Assembly (NCBI RefSeq): GCF_001888165.1
Contig: NZ_CP015455.1
Coordinates: 1,358,001-1,422,000 of the forward strand
Length of the DNA: 64,000 nucleotides
From: Syntrophotalea acetylenica
GTDB lineage: Bacteria > Desulfobacterota > Desulfuromonadia > Desulfuromonadales > Syntrophotaleaceae
Direction of reading: 5' to 3'
Shown here: positions 45,354 to 59,761 of the stretch, piece after piece
How positions within the stretch are numbered: position 1 is the stretch's first letter
Layout of the letters: every line of letters starts with the position of its first letter
Made by a program: the position numbers and the translations under genes
Notes under the pieces: generated by a model
The model's input: the letters and a program-made list of their open reading frames with translations, nothing else
The model's database searches: none
Told to the model about the DNA's origin: nothing

Positions 45354-45440
45354 GCCGAAGTGGTGGAATTGGTAGACACGCTAGGTTCAGGGTCTAGTGG
45401 CCGTAGGGCCGTGGGAGTTCGAGTCTCCCCTTCGGCACCA
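45354..45440 (+). tRNA. tRNA-Leu (CAG)
   Basis: An 87-nt class II tRNA including the encoded CCA. The acceptor gccgaag pairs with cttcggc, the anticodon stem ctagg/tctag encloses the loop ttcaggg with anticodon CAG, there is a long variable arm (tggccgtagggccgt), and the T-arm is gggagttcgagtctccc. A repeat array ends just upstream, as often found beside tRNA genes. Confidence 0.95.
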
Positions 45441-56126: not shown

Positions 56127-57209
56127 TCAGACGGCACGCACCATTGCATCTTCCAGCGGTTCCATGTCCGGTTGGGCGTTGCGGTAGGTATAGGAATCGC
56201 CCCGGTAGTTTTTCAGAAGTACCGTGTCGCCCAGTTGCTGCAGGTAATCGGGCAGCAGAGGGATCTTGCCGCCGCCGCCGGGGGCGTCGATGACGTAGGC
56301 CGGTACTGCCAGGCCGGAGGTGTGTCCCCGCAGGGCCTTTATCACTTCCAGTCCTTCCTCGACGGTGGTGCGGAAGTGTTCCGTGCCCTGCACCAGGTCG
56401 GCCTGGTAGATGTAGTAGGGCCGCACCCGGATGGCGAGCAGTTTCTGCATCAGGCGCTTCATCACCCGCGGATCGTCGTTGATGCCGCGCATCAGCACCG
56501 TCTGGTTGCCCAGCGGAATGCCGGCGTCGGCGAGGCGTGCGCAGGCTTTGGCGGAAGTCGGCGTGATCTCGTCCGGGTGGTTGAAATGAGTGTTGAGGTA
56601 CAGGGGGTGGTAGCGGCGCAGCAGCCGCACCAGGTTCGTGGTGATGCGCTGTGGCAGCACCACCGGCACCCGCGAACCGATGCGGATGATTTCCACACTC
56701 GGGATGCGGCGCAGCTGCTCCAGGATCTCTTCGAGGTTTTCGTCGCCCAGCAGCAGCGGATCGCCACCTGACAGGATCACGTCGCGAATTTGGGGGTTGG
56801 CGCGGATATAGTCGATGCCCGCGGCAATGGTCTCCCGGGTGACTCTCATATGCTCGCCGCCGACTTTGCGCTTGCGGGTGCAGAAGCGGCAATACATGGC
56901 GCATTCCGAGCAGACCATGAACAGCACCCGGTCGGGATAACGATGCACCAGGTTGGCCACCGGACTCTGCTCTTCTTCCGCCAGAGGGTCGGCACAGCAG
57001 ACGTGATCCTCGATTTCCAGTGCGGACGGAATGGCCTGCCGCCAGATGGGGTCGCCAACGGCGTGGATCAGGCCGAGATAATAAGGGTTGACCCGCATCG
57101 GATAACGCTCCACGACCGCTTCGAGGGGGGCCGGATCGATGCCGTAACGGCGCAGCAGGGCGCCGGGGCTGGTCACGCTTGCCTGCAATATTTTTTGCCA
57201 GGTTTCCAT
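56127..57209 (-). CDS. kamA: KamA-family radical SAM lysine 2,3-aminomutase-like protein
   Basis: This 360-residue radical-SAM, PLP-dependent enzyme has the cluster motif CAMYCRFCTRKR (C-x3-C-x2-C), DVILSGGDPLLL, RIGSRVPVVLPQRIT, THFNHPDEITP, LGNQTVLMRGINDD and YIYQADLVQGTEHFRT, as in lysine 2,3-aminomutase. It may make beta-lysine from lysine, although EF-P-type EpmB or other aminomutases share these motifs. It is shorter than clostridial KamA at the C-terminus. ATG 57209 is preferred over GTG 57221. It is the last gene of an operon with a GNAT and two ATP-grasp ligases. Confidence 0.85.
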   Translation of the reverse strand: METWQKILQASVTSPGALLRRYGIDPAPLEAVVERYPMRVNPYYLGLIHAVGDPIWRQAIPSALEIEDHVCCADPLAEEEQSPVANLVHRYPDRVLFMVCSECAMYCRFCTRKRKVGGEHMRVTRETIAAGIDYIRANPQIRDVILSGGDPLLLGDENLEEILEQLRRIPSVEIIRIGSRVPVVLPQRITTNLVRLLRRYHPLYLNTHFNHPDEITPTSAKACARLADAGIPLGNQTVLMRGINDDPRVMKRLMQKLLAIRVRPYYIYQADLVQGTEHFRTTVEEGLEVIKALRGHTSGLAVPAYVIDAPGGGGKIPLLPDYLQQLGDTVLLKNYRGDSYTYRNAQPDMEPLEDAMVRAV

Positions 57210-57239
57210 GGATGGTCTCACGACAGGAAAGATGTTGGT

Positions 57240-57722
57240 TTACAGATCAGGTGTTTGGTCCAATCGTTTGACAAAGGTGATGCGATCATCGCCGGGGCTG
57301 TAAAAATCCCGTATGCGGGATTCCTCCACGTATCCGGCCTGGCGGTAGAATCTCCGGGTGCGCTCATAACCTCCCTGGGAGGAGGTCTCCAGGCAGACGA
57401 GCCGGCCGCCGTGTTGCCGAGCGTATTCCTCAACCTGCGCCATCAGGCGTCTGCCGACGCCTCGGCATTGCGCCTCGGGGCACACCGCGATCCAGTACAG
57501 GGTGACGTTGCCGTCGGCCAGAGGGGTGGGACCGTACAGCACGTAGCCCTGGACGTCGCCGTCGGTCTGCGCCACCGCGACCCGATAGTCGATCTGGGCG
57601 GGGTCGTCCAGGACGATGGCCAGAAGTTCCATGGCGCAGGCGACCTCTGCCTCGGTAAAGGCGCCGGTACTGCGCAGGATGCGCTGCAGGTGCGGCAGGT
57701 CTGCAATTGTCAGGTCACGCAT
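57240..57722 (-). CDS. GNAT-family N-acetyltransferase
   Basis: This 160-residue protein, MRDLTIADLPHLQRILRSTG, contains VTLYWIAVCPEAQCRGVGRR (acetyl-CoA loop Q-x-x-G-x-G), LVCLETSSQGGYERTRRFYR and GYVEESRIRDFYSPGDDRI. It overlaps the ATP-grasp gene by 8 bp and precedes kamA by 30 bp, so it is co-translated. In methanogens an aminomutase/acetyltransferase pair makes N-epsilon-acetyl-beta-lysine; this enzyme is smaller than that acetyltransferase, so the analogy is only suggestive. Confidence 0.85.
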   Translation of the reverse strand: MRDLTIADLPHLQRILRSTGAFTEAEVACAMELLAIVLDDPAQIDYRVAVAQTDGDVQGYVLYGPTPLADGNVTLYWIAVCPEAQCRGVGRRLMAQVEEYARQHGGRLVCLETSSQGGYERTRRFYRQAGYVEESRIRDFYSPGDDRITFVKRLDQTPDL

Positions 57723-58725
57723 GACTCGGCTCCTTGCGTTGTATGGCCATCTGCACGATGCGTTCGATGAGCGCCGGGTAGGGGATTTCCGCGGTTTTGG
57801 CGGCTCTGGCCAGCCCGGCATCGGAGCAGATATCGGGATTGGCGTTGACTTCCAGGATGTAGGGTATGCCGTCGCGCAGGCGGATATCGACCCGGGCGTA
57901 ATCACGGCATTCCAGGATTTTGCAGGCGCGCAGCGCCACATCCCGCACCAGCATTTCTTCCCGCGTGCGCAGCGGCGCCGGGCACACCGGCCGGGTGCGG
58001 GCGAACTCTATGCTGGACTCCAGCCATTTGCCGTCATAACTGACGATGGGGTGGGGCAGGCCCTCCTCGAAGACGATTTCGGAAATCGGCAGCACCTCCA
58101 GGCGCCGGTCGCCCAGCACCGCCGCATTCAGCTCGCGGCCGTCGATGAATTCCTCGATCAGGGCTTCCTGGCGGTAGGTCTCGTGGATGAACCGCACCCG
58201 CTCGCGCAGGGCCCTGTCCGAGCCGACAACACTGTCGCTGGTGATGCCGAGGGAGGCGTCTTCAGCGCGCGGTTTGACGATCAGCGGAAACGCCATGTCA
58301 TGGGAGCGCAGCAGGTGCTGGCCCGGCCGGGCCACCGTGTATCCGGGCGTGGGCAGGTGGTAACGGAGCAGCAGATCCTTGGTGCGGACCTTGTCCTGGG
58401 TAAGGCCCAGGCTAAGGGGTGTGGAGCCGGTATAAGGCAGGCGCAGCAACTCGAACAGCGAGGCTACATGCATCTCCTGACGGCTTTCCCCCCAGAAGCC
58501 CTCACAGAGATTGAACGCCACCGCGGGCGACAACCGCCGAAGCGCGTCGACGAAACTGGCCGGATCCGGCCCCAGGGCCACCAGATGCGCGTCGTAGCCC
58601 CGGCTTTTCAAAGCCCGGGCCACTTCGGCGGCTTCCTTTTCCGCCCCCTGCTCGGAGATCAGGTCGGCGTCGCAGCCCTTAGCCGGCCGTGACGGCGCGC
58701 GATTGAAACAGACAGCTACTCTCAT
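57715..58725 (-). CDS. D-Ala-D-Ala-ligase-like ATP-grasp protein (second of two)
   Basis: This 336-residue ATP-grasp ligase has PAVAFNLCEGFWGESRQEMH, LPYTGSTPLSLGLTQDKVRT, FPLIVKPRAEDASLGITSDS, EALIEEFIDGRELNAAVLGD and the metal site YARVDIRLRDGIPYILEVNANPD (in two parts). It joins a carboxylate to an amine through an acyl phosphate. No mur or ddl partner genes lie nearby. Its start overlaps the end of the other ATP-grasp gene by 47 bp, unusually long, supporting coupled expression. Confidence 0.85.
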   Translation of the reverse strand: MRVAVCFNRAPSRPAKGCDADLISEQGAEKEAAEVARALKSRGYDAHLVALGPDPASFVDALRRLSPAVAFNLCEGFWGESRQEMHVASLFELLRLPYTGSTPLSLGLTQDKVRTKDLLLRYHLPTPGYTVARPGQHLLRSHDMAFPLIVKPRAEDASLGITSDSVVGSDRALRERVRFIHETYRQEALIEEFIDGRELNAAVLGDRRLEVLPISEIVFEEGLPHPIVSYDGKWLESSIEFARTRPVCPAPLRTREEMLVRDVALRACKILECRDYARVDIRLRDGIPYILEVNANPDICSDAGLARAAKTAEIPYPALIERIVQMAIQRKEPSHA

Positions 58726-59761
58726 GGTGATTTCCCGTAAGGTTCAGGCGTTTGACGGCGGCATCCACGACGGCCAGGATCAGGTCCGTATAAGACAGAC
58801 CGGCGGCGCGCGCGGCTTTGGGAAAACAACTGTTCTGTTCCGGGCGCGGCAGGATGCCCGGCAGGGGATTCAGCTCGATGATGTGGGGGCGGCCGTGTTG
58901 ATCGAGGCGCACATCGATGCGGCACCAGTCCCGGCATCCCAGCACCCGGAAGGCGCGGCGACACAGATCTTCGATGGCTTGCTGCAAGGCCGGTTCGAGC
59001 CGCGCCGGGCAGGTGAAGATCCGCAGCGGATCGTCCTCACGGTCCCAGATCCATTTGGCTTCGTAGGAATAGATGGGGTTGACGCCGGCCGGCAGGGCCT
59101 CGAAATTGATTTCGACAGCCGGCAGCACACGCAGATCCGCGCCGTTGCCCAGCACCGCCACGGTAAACTCCCTGCCGGGCAAAAATTCCTCGATCAGCGC
59201 CGGCTGACGATAAACTTCCAGCACCTGGCGCACCTGCCGCAACAGGGCTTTGCGGTCGCGAACCAGCGAGGCGTCGGGCACGCCTTTACTGGAGCCTTCG
59301 AGGATCGGCTTGACCATCTGCGGATAGCGCAGGCGGGCAGGCACCTGGTCCACGGCGGTAACCGTCGTGAAGCGTGGCGTGGCGATGCCGTGACAGGACA
59401 GGATTTCCTTGGTGCGGCGCTTGTCCAGACAGATGCCGAGAGTCACCGGATCGCTGCCGGTGTAGGCCAGGCCCAGCATGTCGAGCATGGCGGGCATCTG
59501 TGCTTCGCGGCTGGCGCCGAGGAGGCCCTCGGCCATGTTGAATACCAGGTCGGGTTTCAGCCTGCGCAGGTTGTCGAAAGCATCGAGATCGGCCTCCACC
59601 AGCGAAACCCGGTGCGCGCTCGCCAAGGCGTCCCGCACCGCTTCGATGGTGTGGATGTCGTCCCATTCGGCGTACAGATCGTCAACGGCGGAAGGAGGGT
59701 CGTCGGCGGAAGATACAGCGGTACGGTCAGCCTTCAGGTTGAAGGCGAGAGCGATATGCAT
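58679..59761 (-). CDS. D-Ala-D-Ala-ligase-like ATP-grasp protein (first of two)
   Basis: This 360-residue protein begins MHIALAFNLKADRTAVSSAD and contains PDLVFNMAEGLLGASREAQM, LAYTGSDPVTLGICLDKRRT, PQMVKPILEGSSKGVPDASL, PALIEEFLPGREFTVAVLGN and WCRIDVRLDQHGRPHIIELN. It is a diverged paralogue of the downstream ligase. Its ATG at 59761 has aaggggtt upstream, which is the right arm of an 11-bp inverted repeat in the leader. Substrates are unknown; two ligases plus an aminomutase suggest assembly of a small peptide-like compound. Confidence 0.85.
   Translation of the reverse strand: MHIALAFNLKADRTAVSSADDPPSAVDDLYAEWDDIHTIEAVRDALASAHRVSLVEADLDAFDNLRRLKPDLVFNMAEGLLGASREAQMPAMLDMLGLAYTGSDPVTLGICLDKRRTKEILSCHGIATPRFTTVTAVDQVPARLRYPQMVKPILEGSSKGVPDASLVRDRKALLRQVRQVLEVYRQPALIEEFLPGREFTVAVLGNGADLRVLPAVEINFEALPAGVNPIYSYEAKWIWDREDDPLRIFTCPARLEPALQQAIEDLCRRAFRVLGCRDWCRIDVRLDQHGRPHIIELNPLPGILPRPEQNSCFPKAARAAGLSYTDLILAVVDAAVKRLNLTGNHHESSCLFQSRAVTAG

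Follow-up and report, generated by a model that had tools for sequence, protein, structure and literature searches.

Organization of the operon

Four genes lie on the minus strand (59761-56127) of a 64,000-nucleotide (nt) stretch of the genome of Syntrophotalea acetylenica (contig NZ_CP015455.1, positions 1,358,001 to 1,422,000), which is here called the window and to which all coordinates refer. As summarized in Table 1, they encode two ATP-grasp ligases resembling D-alanine--D-alanine ligase (Ddl), designated LigA and LigB, followed by a GNAT acetyltransferase and a radical SAM aminomutase of the KamA family. On the evidence of sequence comparison, the four genes are a real and conserved unit, apparently without description so far, that is built of known enzyme families; the arrangement and the leader RNA that precedes it are new. 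The set is not described among the literature matches listed, in agreement with the first-pass annotation of this DNA, which knew of no pathway with exactly these genes.

The genes are tightly packed: 47 nt are shared by LigA and LigB and 8 nt by LigB and GNAT, and GNAT and KamA are separated by 18 nt. Of the 27 loci compared, 26 have a LigA-LigB overlap of 23 or 47 nt, and the overlaps, above all this one, suggest translational coupling. In an alignment of relatives, the start of KamA falls at the Met of METWQK (57209), and the GTG start of the frame is at 57221. The probable promoter was read from the sequence and was not in the list of a consensus promoter scan; a TTGAC box is present upstream of LigA in 26 of 27 loci (in L025 a wrong second box was picked, the right one being visible, and L044 is ended by a contig edge). 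Together with the hairpin and T-run after KamA, these features uphold the earlier description of a single operon with one promoter and one terminator. The flanking genes look unrelated: downstream lies a DUF255/thioredoxin-like gene, and upstream lies htpG in divergent orientation.

Table 1. Genes and transcript elements of the operon in the window
Feature	Position	Strand	Description
Probable promoter	59950-59922	minus	TTGACA-N17-TATATA; read from sequence
Structured leader RNA, model R1	59909-59814	minus	covariance model match 86.1 bits
P4 hairpin	59812-59800	minus	T-run follows in the window
Ribosome-binding segment TAAAAAGGGGTT	59779-59768	minus	complementary to AACCCCTTTTTA (P2 loop and 3′ arm)
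LigA, Ddl-like ATP-grasp ligase	59761-58679	minus	360 aa; PF07478 1.1e-35
LigB, second Ddl-like ATP-grasp ligase	58725-57715	minus	336 aa; PF07478 1.5e-26
GNAT acetyltransferase	57722-57240	minus	160 aa; PF00583 3.4e-13
KamA-family radical SAM aminomutase	57221-56127	minus	364 aa from GTG
Intrinsic terminator of operon	56101-56074	minus	G+C-rich 11-pair stem, TTTTTT tail; directly 3′ of KamA

Distribution and gene order

Full-length orthologues of LigB (53-100% identity) occur in 27 of 58 genomes, the source genome included, and the weaker matches of the LigB search in the remaining genomes are of the Ddl type. The order LigA-LigB-GNAT-KamA and the strand are identical in all 27, with varying flanks and with one contig that cuts KamA; because order and strand are kept throughout, the grouping is not due to chance. 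A wider scan of a public genome collection yielded 242 places that encode a relative, and the 80 best of them were retained. Among these 80 loci, part of which are records of genomes already in the 58-genome set, both ligases are present in 76, KamA also in 66 and all four genes in 52.

Among the groups named in the titles of the 80 records are Bathyarchaeota, Thaumarchaeota, Ignavibacteria, other Bacteroidetes, Nitrospinota, Planctomycetota and several deltaproteobacterial lineages. In lineages other than that of the source, the order differs and the set persists, for example as KamA-LigA-LigB-GNAT. In archaea, LigB faces LigA-KamA, and seven archaeal loci have a nearby GNAT of another subfamily (annotated on one member). 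LigB and GNAT form a single 510-aa reading frame in locus L251; apparent gene fusions in family f50 were rejected as an artefact of open reading frame picking, the genes being separate. In Syntrophaceae-type loci (L157-L162), LigA is separated from KamA-LigB by response-regulator-like genes.

Where LigB has no adjacent KamA, exactly one KamA-family match was found elsewhere in each of the 20 genomes examined. The unlinked KamA adjoins a MerR-like frame of about 90 aa (IDIPRxKLYYLEQKG) in 16 of 20 loci judged by eye (L172-L191), which suggests a KamA-specific regulator. Among 395 sampled genomes of the phylum, every one of the 40 whose LigB match exceeds 300 bits also has a KamA-family match (1e-100), vs 168 of the 355 others; these counts include AblA and EpmB, the two result sets were compared by hand, and the co-occurrence gives weak support to a link between the ligases and KamA.

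LigA and LigB are distinct from D-alanine--D-alanine ligase

LigA and LigB share with Ddl the Lys, Arg, Asp, Glu and Asn residues of ATP-grasp enzymes, all conserved in both, and both exceed the cut-off of PF07478 (Dala_Dala_lig_C; 123 and 94 bits, respectively, vs 24). For LigB, the only one of the two for which a structure was predicted, the AlphaFold2 model (pLDDT, the model's own confidence measure, 87.9) indicates a Ddl-like fold, with 8evv_A as the best match (Z 35.2, root-mean-square deviation 2.0 over 302 residues). Against the Ddl subfamily model, by contrast, LigA reaches 186 bits and LigB 164 bits, both below the cut-off of 243, which a true Ddl encoded elsewhere in the source genome passes with 388 bits. 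The active sites differ as well. At the position that we take to be Tyr216 of Escherichia coli DdlB, LigB has Trp234 (124/124), the source genome's Ddl has Tyr, and LigA has Trp (98/119) or Arg (21/119). Asp298 of LigB (123/124) stands where the source genome's Ddl has Gly, presumably near the acceptor-carboxylate site, and an Asp in that pocket would suit an amine acceptor. LigA also carries a four-residue insertion relative to Ddl. Assignment of LigA and LigB as ordinary Ddl enzymes, which would have spoken against a common pathway in the earlier account, was rejected on these grounds. In three loci (L090, L112 and L118), a third ATP-grasp gene, of the RimK type, lies directly before LigA and beside an arginine decarboxylase gene.

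KamA resembles lysine 2,3-aminomutase and has three paralogues

KamA aligns with the lysine 2,3-aminomutase (LAM) structure 2a5h_A at 2e-118 and exceeds the cut-off of the KamA family model TIGR00238 (303.9 vs 199.2 bits). Its radical SAM motif CxxxCxxC, the Lys for pyridoxal phosphate (PLP) and two Asp residues are conserved in the alignment to 2a5h, as would be expected mechanistically of a lysine 2,3-aminomutase. Among rows with letters at these positions, which include the source genome's own AblA and EpmB-like paralogue, the residues of LAM are found at Asp293 (85/85) and Asp330 (84/84), presumably for binding of the lysine side chain, and at Lys337 (84/84), presumably for binding of PLP.

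Three further KamA-family genes are encoded elsewhere in the source genome. One is ablA, which lies next to ablB, both products scoring above their family cut-offs; this pair, which serves N-epsilon-acetyl-beta-lysine synthesis, resembles the operon in combining a lysine 2,3-aminomutase gene with an adjacent GNAT gene, and differs in that it has no ligases and in that AblB belongs to another GNAT family (TIGR03827). The second is EpmB-like: its orthologues adjoin EpmA and a PGKG frame like that of elongation factor P (EF-P) in 5 of 7 genomes examined, and in the source genome EpmA and the PGKG frame are about 20 kb away from it. The third is a distant relative. Of these, the EpmB-like paralogue is nearest to the operon KamA (527 bits). 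The operon enzyme resembles the EpmB-EpmA system of EF-P beta-lysylation in lacking the full LAM tail; unlike that system, it has no EpmA or EF-P neighbour, scores below the EpmB cut-off (TIGR03821, 250.6 vs 369.3 bits), as does the EpmB-like paralogue itself (236 bits), and falls in a clade of its own. In a tree, the 11 operon KamA proteins of Desulfuromonadales group in a single clade that is separate from 8 EpmB-like proteins (support 100/98 and 100/99). Action of KamA on EF-P, which the first-pass annotation had named as a possible refutation of its pathway, was rejected, as the probable EF-P enzyme of the source genome is a different paralogue, the one with EpmA-linked orthologues.

The deepest split in the tree of 44 KamA proteins separates AblA from the EpmB-like proteins, and partners of the ligases occur to either side of it. 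The 18 operon KamA proteins of other lineages need five label changes, at least three of them forced, with a label that omits the Desulfuromonadales operon and unlinked KamA proteins and with a single AblA row. Repeated recruitment of KamA, the first reading of this tree, was withdrawn, as a single old association that gave rise to EpmB and AblA as branches fits equally; the tree may thus reflect either history.

The GNAT protein

The nearest solved structure to the GNAT is 2r7h_A, which the family profile matches over positions 2-150 of 160 (7.2e-42). It was deposited as a putative D-alanine N-acetyltransferase; we suspect that this name may come from Ddl-like neighbours. None of the nine families reported for the operon GNAT is AblB (TIGR03827), whereas the separate ablB product scores above the cut-off of that model.

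A structured leader RNA precedes the operon

The region upstream of LigA is conserved in 27 loci although the genes further upstream differ. It can be folded into a closing helix P1, a hairpin P2 (AUAAAAA/UUUUUAU with loop GCAACCCC) and a helix P3 (GCC/GGC). RNAalifold, applied to the unadjusted alignment, gave mostly pairing of the loop with the ribosome-binding site and hardly any covariation; P1-P2-P3 was set by hand and then counted with shuffled and slid controls. Over 36 distinct rows, 79 cells carry double changes, compared with 21.9 after shuffling and 9-26 with slid partners, and double changes occur at all eight pairs of inner P1. Paired cells amount to 86.9% vs 30-53% with slid partners, a figure that is biased towards the model, since structure and model derive from the same sequences; the checks are the two kinds of control and nine loci outside the model (L051, L057, L058, L062, L064, L067, L069, L070 and L163).

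The covariance model finds the leader in 26 of the 58 genomes, all operon carriers, once in each and always ahead of this operon, and in none of the 31 genomes without the operon. The 27th carrier (G054, locus L038) has a weak match of 24.3 bits. In the 395-genome sample, the leader was found in six genomes, each time before this operon; the searches of both genome sets used strict filters that lose weak matches, and the locus-level search covered 86 sources. No Rfam family exceeded its gathering score for the leader, weak matches lying far below, and in the same scan only tRNA was reported in the window (a tRNA gene, 45354-45437) and in eight further loci. No such RNA was found among the literature matches listed (best 20 of 303). 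With its covariation above the controls and its fixed position before one operon, the leader qualifies, at the level of sequence, as a structured cis-regulatory RNA.

Control of translation by the leader is probable. The ribosome-binding segment in the window is a perfect 12-nt complement of the P2 loop and 3′ arm, and in all 27 leaders the longest such complement, with G-U pairs allowed, measures 9-15 nt (mean 11.2 vs 7.1 in base-shuffled leaders). The minimum-energy fold predicted for the window leader contains the loop-RBS (ribosome-binding site) pairing, and the centroid has P1 and P2 in its place, which suggests two states that exclude each other, like those of a translational switch. In its covarying fold and alternative pairing of the RBS, the leader thus resembles translational riboswitches that sequester this site, unlike which it reaches no Rfam family threshold.

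Other modes of control were considered and rejected for the leaders as a group. A T-run follows the P4 hairpin in just 3 of 27 leaders, that of the window included, which speaks against P4 as a common transcription attenuator; P4 with its T-run is possibly an attenuator in this genus. Attenuation by a leader peptide was discarded because 11 of the 27 leaders, again including that of the window, have no ATG frame of at least six codons, and the frames of the remaining 16 look dissimilar (ATG starts only).

Polyamine-type genes near related operons

Other families of the phylum have in this cluster an additional protein composed of a GNAT domain and a histone-deacetylase-type domain, the latter nearest to acetylpolyamine amidohydrolases (2e-74) and distinguished from them by its junction to the GNAT domain, its position with KamA and the ligases, and its absence from the source operon. 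Both ligases are adjacent in 9 of 18 regions examined for this protein, and KamA also in 8; the regions were drawn from 38 genomes, partly for nearby KamA or ligase matches, and the fraction is not that of a survey. In two Desulfuromonadales genomes (G026 and G042), the distance between this gene and the operon is roughly 10-20 kb. An operon-type GNAT is fused to the end of the GNAT-deacetylase in four proteins, and the gene for one of them, in G065, directly precedes the leader RNA and LigA. In another contig (8.7 kb, L253), two different KamA genes flank the GNAT-deacetylase gene, and no ligase was found there.

Of 142 loci searched, with some genomes counted twice, 22 have a gene for pyruvoyl-dependent arginine decarboxylase together with the ligases, and these often also have an agmatinase or a deoxyhypusine-synthase-like gene. 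Together, the GNAT-deacetylase and arginine decarboxylase contexts hint that the product is an N-acetylated beta-lysine amide of polyamine-like character and not a plain osmolyte.

A proposed pathway and its alternatives

The small pathway suggested by the first-pass annotation, in which a lysine 2,3-aminomutase-like enzyme is combined with an acetyltransferase and two ATP-dependent ligases, is supported by these comparisons, and the account as a whole stands in part: it recognized operon and pathway and missed the leader RNA and the wide distribution. In the scheme that we infer, for substrates, order of steps, product, ligand and direction of control alike, KamA would shift the alpha-amino group of L-lysine to the beta position, and LigA and LigB would form one or two amide bonds at the expense of ATP, between the carboxyl group of beta-lysine (or of its partner) and an amine. 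The amine partner might be another amino acid or a polyamine, and GNAT would acetylate a remaining amino group. The leader RNA would set translation of LigA and then, through the coupled overlapping genes, that of the whole operon, by alternating between its own P1-P2-P3 fold and pairing of the P2 loop and arm with the RBS; the signal would most likely be a small-molecule ligand, most simply the product of the pathway. We consider it somewhat probable that the operon makes an N-acetylated beta-lysine amide under such translational control in cis; a product of this type is favoured, with either a polyamine or an amino acid as the partner. A broader proposal is put forward tentatively: the leader may represent a new class of riboswitch that senses an N-acetylated beta-lysyl-polyamine or beta-lysyl peptide, and the pathway may be common to bacteria and archaea, with a constant ligase pair and with KamA and GNAT partners and gene order that vary.

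Several observations weigh against parts of this scheme. Because KamA falls below the AblA cut-off (TIGR03820, 472.2 vs 525.4 bits) and matches the 127-position LAM_C model over positions 1-58 only, beta-lysine is the likely but not the certain product of the enzyme. In 10 of the 76 loci with both ligases, KamA was not seen in the stretch covered. The links to polyamines come from families other than that of the source operon: arginine decarboxylase (PvlArgDC) was not found in the source genome or in 24 of the 27 operon genomes, nor was the GNAT-deacetylase protein found in the source genome at E 1e-60. As for the RNA, the CCCC/GGGG pairing is invariant in the leaders and therefore beyond test by covariation; the single-sequence fold is of ordinary stability (z -0.66, 51 of 200 shuffles being as stable); and neither four close carriers (L053, L065, L072 and L073) nor the distant carriers searched yielded a model match with an E value of 1 or less.

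Joining of beta-lysine to putrescine- or spermidine-like amines, with its acetylation set by GNAT and an acetylpolyamine amidohydrolase, would be a special case of the proposed pathway; the GNAT-deacetylase in the cluster, with its fusions to an operon-type GNAT, the arginine decarboxylase loci and LigB Asp298, presumably close to the acceptor site, all point in this direction. We regard it as possible, though not probable; the source operon holds neither accessory gene, and gene adjacency by itself yields no substrate. The types of enzyme would also match synthesis of a compatible solute, such as an acetylated beta-lysine dipeptide against salt stress, with a purpose akin to that of N-epsilon-acetyl-beta-lysine or of N-acetylglutaminylglutamine amide (NAGGN). 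NAGGN synthesis likewise combines a GNAT with ATP-grasp logic to cap a small peptide; it has an amidotransferase where the operon has KamA. Of the compatible solute, dipeptide or peptide-like metabolite that had been suggested earlier, it is the simple osmolyte that is weakened, because ablA-ablB is separate in the source genome and because of the polyamine-type context. In addition, many record titles refer to groundwater, fen, lake or sediment and, as far as titles go, give no hint of a salt-specific trait. An osmolyte operon seems unlikely.

A specialised metabolite, namely an antibiotic-like beta-lysine peptide as in streptothricin-type compounds, is improbable to a greater degree. Such clusters contain both beta-lysine and GNAT resistance enzymes, and the operon GNAT has a weak similarity to the streptothricin acetyltransferase model; its score of 19.7 bits is far below the cut-off of 420, however, and the recurring set lacks a transporter or peptide synthetase and is spread over several phyla, archaea included. 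Least credible is a collection of unrelated genes, in which Ddl-like ligases would make a cell-wall variant and KamA would serve EF-P. The Ddl-like fold and family of the ligases and the PGKG frame in the source genome agree with it, but it is already contradicted by the separate Ddl, EpmA and EpmA-linked type of KamA paralogue, by the constant order of the four genes in 27 of 27 genomes and by the presence of the set in archaeal records.

If the proposed pathway is correct, it would provide a new metabolite, together with its control, for widespread microbes of sediments and the subsurface, and would suggest a pathway for structure 2r7h and for ligases that resemble Ddl without being Ddl. The leader is a candidate orphan riboswitch, and the genes adjacent to it would limit the chemistry of its ligand to a short list.

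Leaders of other lineages

Eight loci of Bacteroidetes and Ignavibacteria (L085, L088, L095, L096, L099, L100, L104 and L122) share a GAAAGGTATCCAAAA...TTTTGGTAC-like segment, varied in L122, within the last 50 nt before LigA. Unlike the Desulfuromonadales leader, this segment could form a hairpin with the RBS and is possibly another control element.

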